From positions 1-12,866 of the forward strand of contig JAGFXV010000034.1 in assembly GCA_017861475.1 (NCBI GenBank): 12,866 nt of DNA, read 5' to 3'. The translations under genes and the position numbers were made by a program. Position 1 is the first letter of the stretch. Every line of letters starts with the position of its first letter. Source of the stretch: Bacillota bacterium. GTDB lineage: Bacteria > Bacillota > Syntrophomonadia > Syntrophomonadales > Syntrophomonadaceae. Below are positions 3,995-11,452 of the stretch, piece by piece. The notes below the pieces were generated by a model, which had not been told where the DNA came from, searched no databases, and saw only the letters and a list, made by a program, of their open reading frames with translations.

Positions 3995-4258
3995 TTAAAT
4001 TAACAGTTGAAAACAAATCAGCAGCAGGATTCCTGGGACCCCTAAAAAACCAGCAATTAAAACTGTCAACACATTAAGGGGCAGGCTGAAATCAAAATAT
4101 GCTCCGATATAATTGGCAAGCATTAGCAGAACCAAGCCTATAATAGAATTTATAACCAGTTTCCATACTAATTTAAGCGGTTGCATTATCAGTTTGGCAA
4201 TAATAAATATAATTACCAGGAGAAATAATATTGCCATCACTAAATTTGCTGTTGCCAA
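3995..4258 (-). CDS. bofA: BofA family protein, pro-sigma-K processing inhibitor
   Basis: An 87-residue integral membrane protein with three hydrophobic stretches (about residues 5-27, 33-51 and 60-87) and the family's C-terminal signature AGFLGVPGILLL. In Bacillus subtilis, BofA sits in the outer forespore membrane with SpoIVFA and holds the SpoIVFB protease inactive until sigma-K activation. In Clostridia the gene is kept even where that checkpoint differs, so the role here is inferred from family. It is the last gene of the dnaX-ybaB-recR-yaaL-bofA run; its ATG directly abuts the stop of the gene before it. Presence supports a spore-forming host. Confidence 0.85.
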   Translation of the reverse strand: MATANLVMAILFLLVIIFIIAKLIMQPLKLVWKLVINSIIGLVLLMLANYIGAYFDFSLPLNVLTVLIAGFLGVPGILLLICFQLLI

Positions 4259-4531
4259 CTAAAATTCCCCTCCTTCGGTCCCTAATAGTTCTCGTTTCTC
4301 CTGTTCTTTAAGTTTCTTTAACAGGTATCCGTATCTTTTTTCGGCCGCATTGACGGTAAATACAGCGTAATCAACCATATCCTCTTCGTCGGCCTGGGAA
4401 AGAACCTGATAGGCATGCCGGAGTTCATCTCCAGCTGCTTTAACTATTTCCGGGTTGATTTTTGTTCCTTTGGACAAAGCAAAAGGTTTTGAACCAATCC
4501 TTAAACACTTACACTTGAAGAAGCCGCACAC
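4259..4531 (-). CDS. YaaL-type small protein (DUF2508-like)
   Basis: A 90-residue, soluble, largely helical and charged protein, with a helical segment about residues 28-80 (KAAGDELRHAYQVLSQADEE and onwards to AEKRYGYLLKKLKEQEKREL). Position between recR and bofA is where Firmicutes carry yaaL, of unknown function, and the composition fits. The start is GTG at 4531, set by AGGAGG 8 bases upstream; the nearby ATG right after that RBS is in another frame and stops after 12 codons. The N-terminus is cysteine-rich (CGFFKCKC), which is unusual and could bind a metal or be surface chemistry without meaning. The call rests mainly on position. Confidence 0.7.
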   Translation of the reverse strand: MCGFFKCKCLRIGSKPFALSKGTKINPEIVKAAGDELRHAYQVLSQADEEDMVDYAVFTVNAAEKRYGYLLKKLKEQEKRELLGTEGGEF

Positions 4532-7159: not shown

Positions 7160-7440
7160 AAATAATTGCCGTGCACCTGGCCTCGAAACTACCTTCCGGG
7201 CGTTACTTGAACAGTTAGCTCCATTCAGGCCACCCTCCGTCACACGGAATGAACCCCTTAGTGCTGCTTCCTTCCGGACCTGACACGGTTCAAGGTGTCC
7301 CGTTGCGCAGGACCCAAACTTCTCAGCCACTTATTCAAGCCAGACCCCACAAGATCAGCCCCTCAGCTCAGGAATTCAATCCTGCTGCAGCGGGTTGCAG
7401 GTTACAGGGCACCGCTAATTCCCCATCTAGCACGGCAAAT
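7160..7440 (-). ncRNA. ffs: Signal recognition particle RNA, large Firmicutes form with Alu domain
   Basis: About 275-280 bases. The universally conserved Ffh-binding hairpin reads GTCAGGTCCGGAAGGAAGCA then GCAC on the minus strand (7283-7261), with the GGAA tetraloop and the asymmetric loop. The 5' end GCCGTGCTAG (about 7436-7427) pairs with the 3' end GCACGGC (7174-7168), closing the Alu-side structure as in the B. subtilis scRNA, whose GCCGTGCTAGGTGG, GCGGTNCCCTGTA and GTGCACGG elements are all recognisable here. The RNA scaffolds Ffh for co-translational membrane targeting. Exact ends are estimates; a 5' leader of about 45 bases is probably processed off. Confidence 0.95.
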
Positions 7441-7601: not shown

Positions 7602-8114
7602 TTATTTGGCTCTGGGGGTCATTCGTGTGCCAATATCCTGTATTTCTCTGCTGAAACTGGATAATGGCTTGCCGGCAGCAATTCCCTGTGATACTTTTTT
7701 GATCCTGGTAACTGTATCGATGTCTGAACTTACCATTACAGTATAATTTGGATATAGCTTCTTCACCTTGGTGAGCACTTCTTTTTCTACCATAGCTGAT
7801 TTGGTTTTTTCTAGATTTGCATTCAAATCAAGACCAACATACAACATTTTTCCGCTTATGACTGCCGTAGCACTGCGAACACCACTTACTTTTTTAGCCT
7901 CAGCAGCCGCTTGCATGGTTGCTTGTTTGTTTGCTGTCATGTTTGTTGTGTTTGTCCTATTGGTAGTATTCGGGGTAGGTGTAGTCACATAAGGCTTTTT
8001 GTTTGTGGGTGAAGGCGTATATGGCTTTTTGGAAGTTTGGCATCCCGCCAGCAACAGACTGAATGCAATTGTACATACCATCATTATCAGCAGTATTTTT
8101 TTAGAATGTTTCAA
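7602..8114 (-). CDS. YhcN/YlaJ-type sporulation lipoprotein
   Basis: 170 residues from a TTG start at 8114, chosen because AGGAGG lies 7 bases upstream and a signal peptide follows at once; a longer frame from 8201 has no RBS. Residues 1-24 are a lipoprotein signal (KK, hydrophobic core, lipobox LLAGC with Cys25). A Pro/Thr/Asn-rich linker (about 26-65, with two copies of KKPY) leads to a globular domain that resembles the YhcN/YlaJ family: AAAEAKKVSGVRSATAVISG, a YVGLDLNA strand, and a DIDTVTRIKKVSQGIAAGKP segment. Family members are found in spores or spore membranes and affect germination or outgrowth. A c-di-GMP-type riboswitch lies upstream on the same strand. Family assignment is good; function here is inferred. 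Confidence 0.85.
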   Translation of the reverse strand: MKHSKKILLIMMVCTIAFSLLLAGCQTSKKPYTPSPTNKKPYVTTPTPNTTNRTNTTNMTANKQATMQAAAEAKKVSGVRSATAVISGKMLYVGLDLNANLEKTKSAMVEKEVLTKVKKLYPNYTVMVSSDIDTVTRIKKVSQGIAAGKPLSSFSREIQDIGTRMTPRAK

Positions 8115-8248
8115 GAAGACACCTCCTGTTTGCTTTATTATTATCATTACGCTACTATTATTTGTTGCTGCAAATAAAACTATGCGCACTAATAAAATCA
8201 AGCAGTGCCTATAATTTTCACAAATTAAAAATAATTTTGCACAGCAAA

Positions 8249-8288
8249 AGAGCTGACCTTTATATTAAAACCTCGAATGGTCAGCTCT
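8249..8288 (-). terminator. Possible riboswitch-linked terminator upstream of the lipoprotein gene
   Basis: AGAGCTGACC and GGTCAGCTCT form a perfect 10-bp stem (arms 8279-8288 and 8249-8258) with a 20-base loop; on the minus strand the 3' arm runs into TCTTTTGC. It lies 53 bases after the aptamer and 135 bases before the lipoprotein start, the place expected for the expression platform. The U tract is short and the loop large, so strength is uncertain. Confidence 0.6.
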
Positions 8289-8341
8289 CCTGCTCCGGGT
8301 TGGTACTGAACAACAGTCCACCCTCCTTTGTATATTATTAT

Positions 8342-8425
8342 CCTGGCAACCGGGCCGCCATAGCTTGCGCCTTAGGCCCCTGGCTTTGTGCCCCCTCCTT
8401 TCGAAGGGTTTACCCACCAATCCAG
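8342..8425 (-). promoter_or_regulatory. Cyclic-di-GMP class I (GEMM-I) riboswitch aptamer
   Basis: On the minus strand: P1 arms CTGG (8425-8422) and CCAG (8346-8343); GGTAAACC at the P1/P2 junction; P2 stem CCCTTC/GGAGGG capped by a GAAA tetraloop; the linker GCACAAAGCC (consensus GCAAAGCC); and P3 carrying the 11-base tetraloop receptor CCTAAG...TATGG around a GCAA-capped helix; then CGGCCCGGTTGCCAGG. These are the hallmark parts of the class I c-di-GMP riboswitch, including the tetraloop-receptor contact. The G that I align with position 20 of the Vibrio aptamer is retained, favouring c-di-GMP over 3',3'-cGAMP. A TATAAT (8439-8444, minus strand) lies just upstream but lacks a matching -35 box. 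The next minus-strand gene is the lipoprotein at 7602-8114. Confidence 0.9.
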
Positions 8426-8693
8426 TTTTCCCAAACTAATTATACCTGGCGATATAATTTCATTTGGGCGCCTGCTCGAAAACCCTTGTCCATTACCGCT
8501 TATCTGTTCCTCCTCCGCCTATCTTAATATAAGCATAAACTTATACCATGATAGTTGGATCAAATCTGCCTGCCCGCAGGCTTTGGCCAGATTATTAACA
8601 ATGATTTCGGCCAGACAATATTTTCTGACAAGCACTGGCTCAGGATAATTTTTGAACAGGATTTTAGCTAAAGAGCCATTTCCTGTTATATTA
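8426..8693 (-). other. Gene-free leader region upstream of the riboswitch
   Basis: No convincing gene in either strand. If the promoter at 8694-8722 is used, this is transcribed leftward into the riboswitch. It contains several potential hairpins: TGGCTC/GAGCCA (8636-8641 and 8673-8678), GCCTGC/GCAGGC (8568-8581), TATAAG/CTTATA (8528-8545), and GGCCAGA given twice (8585-8591 and 8609-8615). One minus-strand frame stays open from about 8695 to 8519 without a standard start codon. Confidence 0.4.
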
Positions 8694-8722
8694 ATTTTAT
8701 TAAATTACATATAGCCTGTCAA
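8694..8722 (-). promoter_or_regulatory. Near-consensus promoter reading towards the riboswitch and lipoprotein
   Basis: Minus strand TTGACA (8717-8722), exactly 17 bases, TAAAAT (8694-8699). The start would be near 8686. It is the best -35/-10 pair upstream of the riboswitch, and would give a leader of about 570 bases before the lipoprotein start codon, with the aptamer in the middle. Confidence 0.6.
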
Positions 8723-8767
8723 TGTTTTTTCAGAATATTTCGATTATTTTGTTGCATTTTCTTGCCA

Positions 8768-8796
8768 TTGTGATTATTTTGCGGAAAGCAGATAAT
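8768..8796 (+). promoter_or_regulatory. Possible promoter of the DNA glycosylase gene
   Basis: TTGTGA (8768-8773), 17 bases, GATAAT (8791-8796). The start near 8803 would leave the RBS AGGAG (8806-8810) almost at the mRNA end. An alternative pair is TTGCAT (8752-8757) with TATTTT (8775-8780). Neither is strong. Confidence 0.3.
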
Positions 8797-8822
8797 TTTA
8801 TAAAAAGGAGACTGTAATCATA

Positions 8823-9389
8823 ATGGAATGTAAATCATTTGCCCCTATCTTACGGGAAGACGCGCGGGTTTTAATATTAGGTACGATGCCGAGCGTGATG
8901 TCTCTAAAGACGCACCAGTATTACGGTCATCCTCAAAATCACTTCTGGCCGATCATATTTTCCCTAATAGAACTGCCTTTGCCCTCTTCCTATGAGCAAA
9001 GAGTACAGGAAGTGATCAACAACCGAATTGCTATTTGGGATGTTGCTGCCAGTTGTGACCGTGAAGGCAGTAACGATTCCGCCATTCGCAATGCAATTGC
9101 CAATGATTTTCACAATCTGCTGCCCCGATTGCCGGAACTGCAGTTAATTTGCTTTAACGGTACCAAAGCCAGAGATTTATGGAAAAAACATGTTGGTGAC
9201 ATTTCACCATCTTCTGTAGGTTTTGTAACGCTGCCTTCAAGCAGCCCAATCCCAGGAAGAAAAATCAAAACGCTGCCACAAAAACTGGCAGCGTGGATGG
9301 TTATTAAAGAATATCTTGCCGGTAATAGAAATTTACGAAAGCTTTCCCTAAATCATTGGTCAATAAATACTGATCCCGGAAATGCCTGA
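8823..9389 (+). CDS. DNA-deoxyinosine (hypoxanthine) glycosylase, UDG superfamily
   Basis: 188 residues and the only plus-strand gene. The N-terminal core RVLILGTMPSVMSLKTHQYY then GHPQNHFW (about 15-42) is the active-site motif of the hypoxanthine-DNA glycosylase branch (family 6) of the uracil-DNA glycosylase superfamily; LPSSSPIPGR (137-146) is the second, DNA-intercalation motif (often LPSTSPA). N39 is in the catalytic-side position. The enzyme would excise deaminated bases, opening base excision repair. The conserved fold seems to end at EYL (about 165); the last 23 residues lie antisense to the neighbouring gene and look non-native. RBS AGGAG is 12 bases before ATG, slightly far. The gene overlaps the convergent gene by 86 bases. 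Confidence 0.85.
   Translation: MECKSFAPILREDARVLILGTMPSVMSLKTHQYYGHPQNHFWPIIFSLIELPLPSSYEQRVQEVINNRIAIWDVAASCDREGSNDSAIRNAIANDFHNLLPRLPELQLICFNGTKARDLWKKHVGDISPSSVGFVTLPSSSPIPGRKIKTLPQKLAAWMVIKEYLAGNRNLRKLSLNHWSINTDPGNA
9260..9294 (-). terminator. Terminator of the transglutaminase-like gene, inside the glycosylase gene
   Basis: ACGCTGCCA (9270-9278) and TGGCAGCGT (9286-9294) make a perfect 9-bp GC-rich stem with a 7-base loop. On the minus strand it is followed by TTTGATTTTT, and it lies 10 bases past the stop codon of the minus-strand gene. The same bases encode residues about 146-157 of the glycosylase on the plus strand, where there is no T tract, so the terminator is directional. Confidence 0.8.
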
Positions 9390-11397
9390 GCAAGGCTACC
9401 GGCCATATGAATTTGGAACCAAAGGCGGCGGTGGCAATAAAGCATTCATCTGTCCCGGCTTCTGCAATGTAGGAAATAGCAGTACAGGTGCTCTCATTTT
9501 TATCTATATTCTGAACGCTTATATAAAGGGTGCCGGACCCTGTTCCCAATTGTTCAGTCGACAACTGCAAAGTAGTCTGATCTGTAGGAACCTTCCCGGT
9601 TACAAAAGGAGTTTCCGTAGTCAGGGAACTGTATACTCTGATTTCATCTCCGCTATGCAATCCGGTAATATTAATCACATCAGAGGTGCCGGTTGCATTA
9701 TTGGTCACCATAACTTGTCCGGCAGTAAGTGCAGTACTGGCCAGTTTGACCTGAGCACATGCAATACTCAGATCACTCCACACACCGCTCAGGGTTCCAG
9801 TAACGGCAGCAGGACATACTCTGAAAAACAGATATTTGCCCACATCTGTATTTTGCACCGTATAAACCGATCCGATGGCCCCGGGGATCAAGGTTTTATC
9901 GCTGCCGTCAGCAGAAGCACCCCGATACCACTCAAACTGACTTAATCCCTTCTTATCATTCTCTGTATCATTGTAATTATAAATCCCGCTTACCGACTCA
10001 CCCGGCTGCAGTTTGCCGGTGATTTCCAGCGAACTGGCGGTTGGAGCCTGGTTGGTTGTCGAATATGTAAAATTCATATTCACTATTATATAACCTGTCA
10101 ACCCGCCTCGAGTGTAACGCGAAGCACTTAATCCGTAACCAACATAAGGTGAAATTTCTTGAATTATCTCTCCAACTCGATTAAGAGCTGTTGAAATATC
10201 CGTACTTCCAATGTAATATCTTATACTGCAAGCAGAATTATGATTTGTTATATTAGTTTGGATCATATTTCTAAGCTCAGTCTCATTTTCGGCAGTTTTT
10301 TCAAACAACAGGTAATCAAGCTGTAACTGCTGCCGTAACCGTACATAAGTATCACTTTGATCTGTGCCAAGAGCGATTTGGGTATTCAAAGTATCTGCAT
10401 AGGATATATTGGCCGCAGGCAATAAACCATCATACTCTGCATACGCTTTATGATCGAGATTGATTTCGGTATCGGTTAAATTGTAGTAGTTATATAAGAC
10501 CTGACCGACTTTATCCGTCACTGGATCATCCCAAGTGCAGTCCAGATAGTACCATTTGCCCTCAATCTCTACCAGATTCCAGGCATGAGCTCCGCCGCCG
10601 GCAGTCCCGCCAATGATCCTGGCCTGCAATCCTGCTTCTTCCAACATTTTGTAAGCCAGCAAAGAGTATCCCTGGCAAACCGTCTTCTTTTCTCCATATA
10701 AAGCAGCATAAGCAGAATGCTCAACAAGGGTGGTATCGTAAGCTACATTAAGTACAATATAGTCATGGATCGCTTTGACGATCTGGTGGGGATTCATACC
10801 CGCATCTATAATAATCGATAAAATATTGGTCACTGACACGTCTACATCGTTTTCCTGCGCCAAGGTGGTCAGATAGGATATATAGGCTGGATTTTCTGGA
10901 TCAGTATTGTTTATAAAGGATATTTCACTACTAGTCTCTCCTGGCAGTACACTATAAGGTAATTTAACTATATTGAACTTAAGATAATCGTCCTCATTTG
11001 TAATCGAATTTATTAGATTTGATAGACCATTTAGATTAAGTAAATTGCCATACTCATCCACTTCTCCAAGAGTGTTGAGAGGCCCTGTATATGTAACTTG
11101 CGGATATGTCTCGCGATTTGTGAAAGCCTGATATAAAACTGATTCCAGTTCTGTCATGTTAGCGGCTGTATAAGCAGTAACTCCCATTGGCTGCAGTGAT
11201 TTTACAGGCAGCAGCTTTTCTTGAATATCCACATAATAAGGATTAGTCCAGGTCTTTGTAATCGTTTCAACCACTTTGTCCGGATTTTCATCTGCAGCAT
11301 ATATCAATTGCGGAGTAAACAGAAATGTCATGATTAATAATGATATACCCGTCAGTATAATCTTAGCTTTCAATTTCAATTGCTCCATTTCTTTCAT
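9304..11397 (-). CDS. Secreted transglutaminase-like protein with Ig-like region and CFI-box C-terminus
   Basis: About 697 residues from ATG at 11397; other possible starts are ATG 11388 and TTG 11373, while the longer frame from 11451 has no RBS and lies at the likely promoter. Residues 1-34 form a signal peptide (KLKAK, hydrophobic core, LIYA cleavage region). A transglutaminase-like core holds a Cys-His-Asp triad: C241 in KTVCQGYS, H271 in GGGAHAWN, D286 in YYLDCTWDDP. A region about 450-550 resembles bacterial Ig-like modules (LEITGKLQPGESVSGIYNYN, FEWYR, GKYLFFRV). The C-terminus DECFIATAAFGS...LRHFRDQYLLTN...AFVNFYY is a CFI-box tail seen on exported proteins. Role is likely in the envelope as a peptidase or crosslinker; the substrate is unknown. 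The tail seems cut short after YY. Confidence 0.82.
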   Translation of the reverse strand: MKEMEQLKLKAKIILTGISLLIMTFLFTPQLIYAADENPDKVVETITKTWTNPYYVDIQEKLLPVKSLQPMGVTAYTAANMTELESVLYQAFTNRETYPQVTYTGPLNTLGEVDEYGNLLNLNGLSNLINSITNEDDYLKFNIVKLPYSVLPGETSSEISFINNTDPENPAYISYLTTLAQENDVDVSVTNILSIIIDAGMNPHQIVKAIHDYIVLNVAYDTTLVEHSAYAALYGEKKTVCQGYSLLAYKMLEEAGLQARIIGGTAGGGAHAWNLVEIEGKWYYLDCTWDDPVTDKVGQVLYNYYNLTDTEINLDHKAYAEYDGLLPAANISYADTLNTQIALGTDQSDTYVRLRQQLQLDYLLFEKTAENETELRNMIQTNITNHNSACSIRYYIGSTDISTALNRVGEIIQEISPYVGYGLSASRYTRGGLTGYIIVNMNFTYSTTNQAPTASSLEITGKLQPGESVSGIYNYNDTENDKKGLSQFEWYRGASADGSDKTLIPGAIGSVYTVQNTDVGKYLFFRVCPAAVTGTLSGVWSDLSIACAQVKLASTALTAGQVMVTNNATGTSDVINITGLHSGDEIRVYSSLTTETPFVTGKVPTDQTTLQLSTEQLGTGSGTLYISVQNIDKNESTCTAISYIAEAGTDECFIATAAFGSKFIWPVALLRHFRDQYLLTNDLGKAFVNFYYRQDIL

Positions 11398-11452
11398 ATA
11401 TATAGTACTTATAATTTTGAACAAGTTGCTGTAATATTCTAATTCTACCATT

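Follow-up and report, generated by a model that had tools for sequence, protein, structure and literature searches.

The c-di-GMP-I aptamer considered here seems, judging from the sequence around it, to form the 3' portion of a larger structured RNA, roughly 440 nt long. I propose that this is a separate RNA whose 3' domain senses c-di-GMP and that the spore lipoprotein gene alongside it is controlled in the forespore, a proposal to which I give an even chance of being right. The window (the whole stretch of 12,866 nucleotides that was analysed) belongs to a fragmented assembly, presumably a metagenome bin, of 2.34 Mb in 431 contigs and 77% complete. This genome is called G000 below; its closest relative, a Syntrophomonadaceae MAG, is G001, and Syntrophomonas zehnderi is G002. 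The RNA is laid out, 5' to 3', as a sigma-A-like promoter, a folded 5' domain of about 260 nt, the aptamer, a linker and a hairpin, and the features discussed are these:

8722-8694, minus strand: putative sigma-A-like promoter, TTGACA-17-TAAAAT (11 of 12 in a promoter scan)
8687-8655, minus strand: H1, the 5'-most hairpin of the predicted fold (AACAGGA/TCCTGTT)
8648-8641, minus strand: 5' strand of the predicted closing helix, TTATCCTG, pairing with CAGGATAA
8638-8422, minus strand: insertion subdomain closed by CCAGT/ACTGG, from the fold and from substitutions
8424-8342, minus strand: c-di-GMP-I (GEMM-I) aptamer, Rfam RF01051
8345-8338, minus strand: 3' strand of the predicted closing helix, CAGGATAA, at the aptamer 3' end
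8329-8297, minus strand: linker with AAAGGAGG and a small hairpin, GGGTGGACTG/CAGTACCAACCC; 34 nt identical in G001
8294-8243, minus strand: terminator-like hairpin with a 20-nt loop and UUUU, -25.9 kcal/mol
8185-8156, minus strand: putative sigma-G-like promoter, GCATA-18-AATAATA, the same element as before homologues
8114-7602, minus strand: YhcN/YlaJ sporulation lipoprotein gene with a TTG start, PF09580 and TIGR02898

The aptamer itself is secure. A first-pass annotation of this DNA had described a minus-strand GEMM-I aptamer with a GAAA loop, CCTAAG/TATGG and ACAAAGCC, all of which are present, and the covariance-model search that it called for returns RF01051 at 68.7 bits against a gathering threshold of 35 (cmscan, E 4.7e-12, full model, 1-87). 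The RF01051 alignment marks no non-standard pair; beside the A-rich junction there is a U-A where the consensus has C-G. Identity to the aptamer of G001 is 93%. It is one of five c-di-GMP-I aptamers in G000. Both G positions of the GGCAAA motif are G, and one of them is presumably the counterpart of G20 in Vc2. Specificity for c-di-GMP over cGAMP goes with a G at position 20 of Vc2, and according to PMC6274999 a G20A mutant binds cGAMP. A TATAAT directly before the aptamer was considered as a second promoter and discarded: no -35 scored, and G001 has TGTAAT.

The gene named in that annotation, a YhcN-type lipoprotein at 7602-8114, is equally well founded. Both families exceed their curated cut-offs (PF09580, 68.1 bits over 26.3; TIGR02898, 107.5 over 99.75), the match to PDB 7peg (YhcN) has an E value of 0.00096, and a Shine-Dalgarno sequence, AGGAGG, lies at 8127-8122. 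Nothing else was said to be coding between aptamer or hairpin and the lipoprotein, and no other gene is seen there. With the RF01051 match and the YhcN/YlaJ assignment, the original observation stands. It had mentioned neither the 5' domain and promoter on the upstream side of 8425 nor the sigma-G-like element (8185-8156).

A distance of 269 nt separates the sigma-A-like promoter from the aptamer downstream of it. The equivalent place in G001 reads TTGACG-18-TATAAT (by eye), in a region, 8722-8690, of which only 22 of 33 positions are identical. Between promoter and aptamer the predicted fold begins with H1, whose region (8687-8650) is 92% identical to G001. There follows the first strand of a long-range closing helix, 8648-8641/8345-8338, with predicted pair probabilities of 0.96-1.0 in the free ensemble. 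An exact 9-mer complement for this helix turned up in 14 of 5000 shuffles, and any 9-nt complement to the 50 nt following the aptamer in 97 of 2000. The helix is invariant in G001, so it yields no covariation. The insertion subdomain consists of a long imperfect hairpin (8633-8470) and a second hairpin, H3 (8468-8430). A protein encoded in the 5' domain was considered and rejected, since no frame is kept between G000 and G001 and the indels break frames. In a permissive Rfam search of 8100-8830 only the aptamer rose above gathering.

How well is this RNA conserved? Two sequences carry it (n=2, G000 and G001), both in fragmented assemblies. Between them the 5' domain (257 nt, 8689-8433) is 85% identical with three gaps, the linker 90% and the hairpin 92%, compared, for third codon positions, with 61% in the lipoprotein gene and 56% in the aligned part of the glycosylase gene. 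Beyond the hairpin, the spacer has 68% identity and ten gaps; the SRP RNA has 98%. That RNA, a large bacterial SRP RNA (7169-7435, minus strand, 205 bits by Rfam), lies between dnaX and the lipoprotein gene, and it adjoins the lipoprotein gene in G001 and S. zehnderi as well.

The glycosylase frame, longer in the window, overlaps tail to tail by 86 nt with the gene for a 715-aa protein (9304-11451, minus strand) that has a transglutaminase core and a CFI-box C-terminal domain. The latter gene looks like an insertion; the equivalent position of G001 does not have it, and an NADH dehydrogenase frame comes about 210 nt after the glycosylase frame there. Elsewhere in the window, in the dnaX-recR neighbourhood, a gene for BofA, the sigma-K processing regulator (3995-4258, minus strand), adjoins a DUF2508-like gene (4259-4531) that scores slightly under its cut-off.

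The fold can be judged against shuffled sequence and against substitutions. Folding z is -5.0 for 8690-8432 and -7.0 for the whole of 8690-8240. A separate run on 8690-8433 gave -4.1 (100 shuffles; -3.6 for the G001 counterpart), just beyond the lowest value, -3.8, among 49 minus-strand tiles (40 shuffles each; mean -0.9, sd 1.2), two of which overlap the RNA. For the pair test, G001 substitutions were mapped onto the pairs of the minimum-free-energy structure (MFE) of the window sequence alone. They break 10 pairs of the whole RNA where 24.7 are expected and six of the 5' domain (8690-8432) where 15.1 are expected; in neither case did any of 4000 simulations go as low. Double changes that keep a pair number three in the whole RNA (0.8 expected, P 0.04); two lie in the 5' domain, which alone is not significant (0.8 expected, P 0.18). 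The consensus fold has 133 pairs, and at four of them both partners have changed in a compensatory way: two of these belong to the long hairpin, one to H3 and one to the final hairpin. The MFE structures of G000 and G001 (148 and 143 pairs) share only 92 pairs, so the exact pairing within the long hairpin is uncertain.

These results bear on the idea that the aptamer is a relic, left behind with AAAGGAGG and the hairpin when a surface-protein gene was lost, the upstream fold being incidental. The idea has something to draw on: AAAGGAGG recalls contig C33 of G002, in which an aptamer is directly followed by a Shine-Dalgarno-like site with a start codon, and CAACCCGG resembles the terminator arm of a copy in G000 (C288). 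Conservation of the 5' domain, aptamer and linker beyond the level of third codon positions and spacer, together with changes that preserve pairs, speaks for a present function, and I consider the relic improbable. To the extent that two sequences allow a judgement, the RNA is kept by selection.

Its distribution is narrow. With 8700-8425 as blastn query, lengthwise matches occur in two of 61 genomes, besides a 24-nt match in G022; with 8424-8120, eight of 61 match, those outside G000 and G001 over short, mostly aptamer-internal stretches. The whole RNA, sought in 54 genomes of the family, is found in G000 and G001, plus an aptamer-region match in G017, and when the two 5' domain sequences are combined into a covariance model, it matches in two of 63 genomes of the order. 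Plasmid and phage collections gave no match to the RNA, and viral contigs no instance of the exact 33-nt linker pattern. The RNA was not found in S. zehnderi or G032.

Lipoprotein matches number 53 in 41 of 61 genomes (with loci given for 30 of these), and the window's lipoprotein gene appears to bring a promoter of its own. GCATA-17/18-AATAATA precedes the homologue in G000, G001, G002 and G032, that is, in four of six homologues, the spacing in S. zehnderi and in G032 being 17. Over these four genomes, in that order, the pattern occurs 5, 3, 5 and 8 times (21 in total) against 2, 1, 1 and 1 (5 in total) for a reversed-pattern control, and in every one of them one copy lies before the lipoprotein gene. 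Another copy in G002 stands before a SpoIVB-like frame (by eye). Two further loci, L126 (G001:C38) and L131 (G000:C143), have GCATA-17-AATAATA 20-22 nt before an HU-like gene (by eye).

A two-block model was trained on 16 promoters, all from genes for small acid-soluble spore proteins; of 30 loci 18 were supplied, and two of these were dropped for short flanks. The model came out as GCATA-17/18 with an A-rich second block. Its best match upstream of the homologue is the lipoprotein element, equalled by 7, 8, 5 and 1 of 300 shuffles in G000, G001, G002 and G032. In G005 and G019, where 88 of 300 shuffles do as well in each case, the element was not found before the homologue. At 11.5 the lipoprotein element scores below the 16 training promoters (12.4-17.3), and the model was seeded with that element, so its verdict is support and no proof. 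A strict promoter pattern matched two of 14 upstream stretches, for which gene finding was faulty. The B. subtilis sigma-G consensus served for comparison, and the element resembles, in its sequence, the spore-protein promoters of this lineage. B. subtilis yhcN is forespore-specific according to the title of Bagyan et al. 1998, as cited in PMC8863042.

Does c-di-GMP then control the lipoprotein, as the first-pass annotation supposed? Several observations count against it. A hairpin and a sigma-G-like promoter intervene between aptamer and gene; G002 and G032, which lack the RNA, have the promoter element before their homologue as well; and the spacer from hairpin to promoter drifts, with the low identity and many gaps given above. 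The comparison of the intergenic region in relatives, which the annotation had suggested, divides: aptamer and gene are paired again in G001, whereas S. zehnderi has the gene beside its SRP RNA, with the same sigma-G-like element and without the RNA. A contig scan by lipoprotein pattern led to G001 and S. zehnderi only, and the aptamer is kept beside a YhcN-type gene in one sister species, G001. That is also the one locus with an aptamer within about 1.5 kb among 29 lipoprotein-family loci outside the window's own genome, many of which hold only distant members. Among the literature matches listed, titles and abstract openings include no c-di-GMP riboswitch before a YhcN gene; those joining YhcN with c-di-GMP concern, by title, Klebsiella, Erwinia or E. 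coli. Taken together, the evidence does not support an action of c-di-GMP on the spore gene; such control may exist but is not the best reading.

The hairpin after the aptamer deserves closer attention. It is present as annotated, with arms AGCAGGAGAGCTGACC and GGTCAGCTCTTTTGCT, although its stem is longer than 10 bp: counted as far as the U run it measures 11 bp, and 16 bp if the U run is included, and one U-A pair is C-G in G001 through a double change. Its 20-nt loop and four U are atypical for a terminator, and a terminator scan confined to loops of 3-8 nt does not list it. Loop and U run together make read-through plausible. The 440-nt RNA might then be a leader of the lipoprotein gene, c-di-GMP setting read-through at the hairpin in vegetative cells and sigma-G serving the forespore, which is the earlier idea with a second promoter added. 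I think this rather unlikely, although RNA, hairpin and gene come in the same order in both species that carry the RNA and the hairpin is of a weak terminator type.

The annotation had proposed a possible switch, pairing of GGTTG (8351-8347) with CAACC (8302-8298). The two are indeed complementary; as a switch they fall short, as the pairing leaves the hairpin unaltered. Forcing it costs some 13 kcal/mol relative to the MFE and disrupts the closing helix, but the hairpin is not reached and keeps a predicted probability of 1.0 in all three ensembles (free, aptamer forced, GGTTG/CAACC forced). H1 as antiterminator is attractive by eye, and shuffles were as good in 324 of 500 cases (181 of 500 for G001). 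No stretch upstream provided a partner for the hairpin 5' arm that beat shuffles, which argues against a leader, as do the drifting spacer and the RNA-less S. zehnderi locus. The missing overlap alone does not argue against control: according to PMC9262584, the aptamer of the c-di-GMP OFF switch Cd1 can be present together with the terminator.

The linker invites a different thought. AAAGGAGG, at 8329-8322 and 12 nt past the aptamer, is Shine-Dalgarno-like, and with a TTG or GTG start it might open a frame of 10-18 codons running into the hairpin, so that c-di-GMP would set its translation and the passage of ribosomes would unfold the hairpin. The 34 nt from this site are identical in both species, and in the GTG frame (8265-8321, minus strand) three of four interspecies changes are silent (by eye). 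That GTG abuts the Shine-Dalgarno site, with zero spacing, so the silent changes are probably chance; four changes are in any case too few, and pairing accounts for some of them too. The stop of the TTG frame is not kept (by eye), and the linker holds no clearly conserved reading frame of at least 20 codons. I regard a leader peptide as very improbable.

I return to the separate RNA, whose transcription, termination, ligand binding and action I infer as follows. An RNA of about 440 nt would be transcribed in growing cells from the sigma-A-like promoter at 8722-8694 and would end at the 8294-8243 hairpin. Its 5' part would fold into H1, the long-range closing helix and the two-hairpin insertion subdomain, held by CCAGU/ACUGG, with the closing helix abutting the 3' edge of the aptamer and stacked on it. 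Bound c-di-GMP would lock the aptamer and, by way of the stacked helix, the whole RNA, and the locked RNA would change in stability or partner. The lipoprotein gene would be its own unit, which the sigma-G-like promoter (8185-8156) serves in the forespore. The most specific form of the model is tentative, and I would sooner expect it to need amendment than to hold: a free-standing c-di-GMP-binding RNA of about 440 nt, in which the outer helix of the aptamer is rebuilt by a strand some 210 nt upstream and the two-hairpin insertion subdomain separates that strand from the ligand pocket, the messenger controlling the RNA itself, through its stability or the binding of a partner, and not the downstream gene.

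Other c-di-GMP-I loci provide a standard. A promoter-like site lies within 60 nt of the aptamer in 19 of 33, and many of them have the start of a signal-peptide-like frame within about 120 nt downstream (by eye). In nine of the 33, the first frame either lies more than 200 nt away or was not found; a long distance by itself is therefore nothing unusual. The genes that follow the copies in G000, G001 and G002 look mostly exported, pilin-like or flagellar (by eye). Of 11 copies counted in these three genomes, nine others were checked for terminators. Four have a credible terminator overlapping the aptamer 3' strand (G000:C288, both of C118, G001:C142) and three a terminator clear of the aptamer (C293, C196, C369); the candidates picked at C376 and at G002:C33 are spurious. 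At C288 (L076) the arrangement resembles that of a simple ON switch: CCGGGTTGCC, the 3' strand of the aptamer, pairs with GGCAACCCGG, and TTTTTT comes next. At C118 of G000 (L077) two near-identical aptamers stand in tandem before an exported-looking frame, each with its own terminator overlapping its 3' strand.

If the window's RNA is free-standing, a c-di-GMP riboswitch domain would be used in a large noncoding RNA and not in a leader, and there would be a concrete object with which to ask what c-di-GMP does in syntrophic spore-formers. If it is read into the lipoprotein gene, it would tie c-di-GMP directly to a spore lipoprotein. PMC8653836 has c-di-GMP inhibiting early sporulation in C. 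difficile, likely through a pathway yet unidentified. Either reading cautions against assigning riboswitch targets from adjacency alone.

Against known systems the RNA compares as follows. Like other c-di-GMP-I riboswitches (RF01051), its aptamer passes the model with all pairs standard; unlike them, it has 260 nt of folded RNA before the aptamer and no clear switch after it. EutX and Rli55, as portrayed in PMC7602753, are trans-acting RNAs controlled by B12 riboswitches, and the window's RNA would likewise be free-standing and carry a riboswitch aptamer. There, however, ligand stops synthesis of the remaining, protein-sequestering RNA, whereas the aptamer here is near the RNA 3' end. The C. 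difficile c-di-GMP-II/group I ribozyme, according to PMC9481103, also joins a c-di-GMP aptamer to a large second domain, although that is a class II aptamer beside a self-splicing intron; a search for Rfam ribozymes or introns in 8100-8830 found none. Among YhcN/YlaJ spore lipoproteins, finally, the window's member is ordinary by PF09580 and TIGR02898, and only its neighbourhood is unusual.
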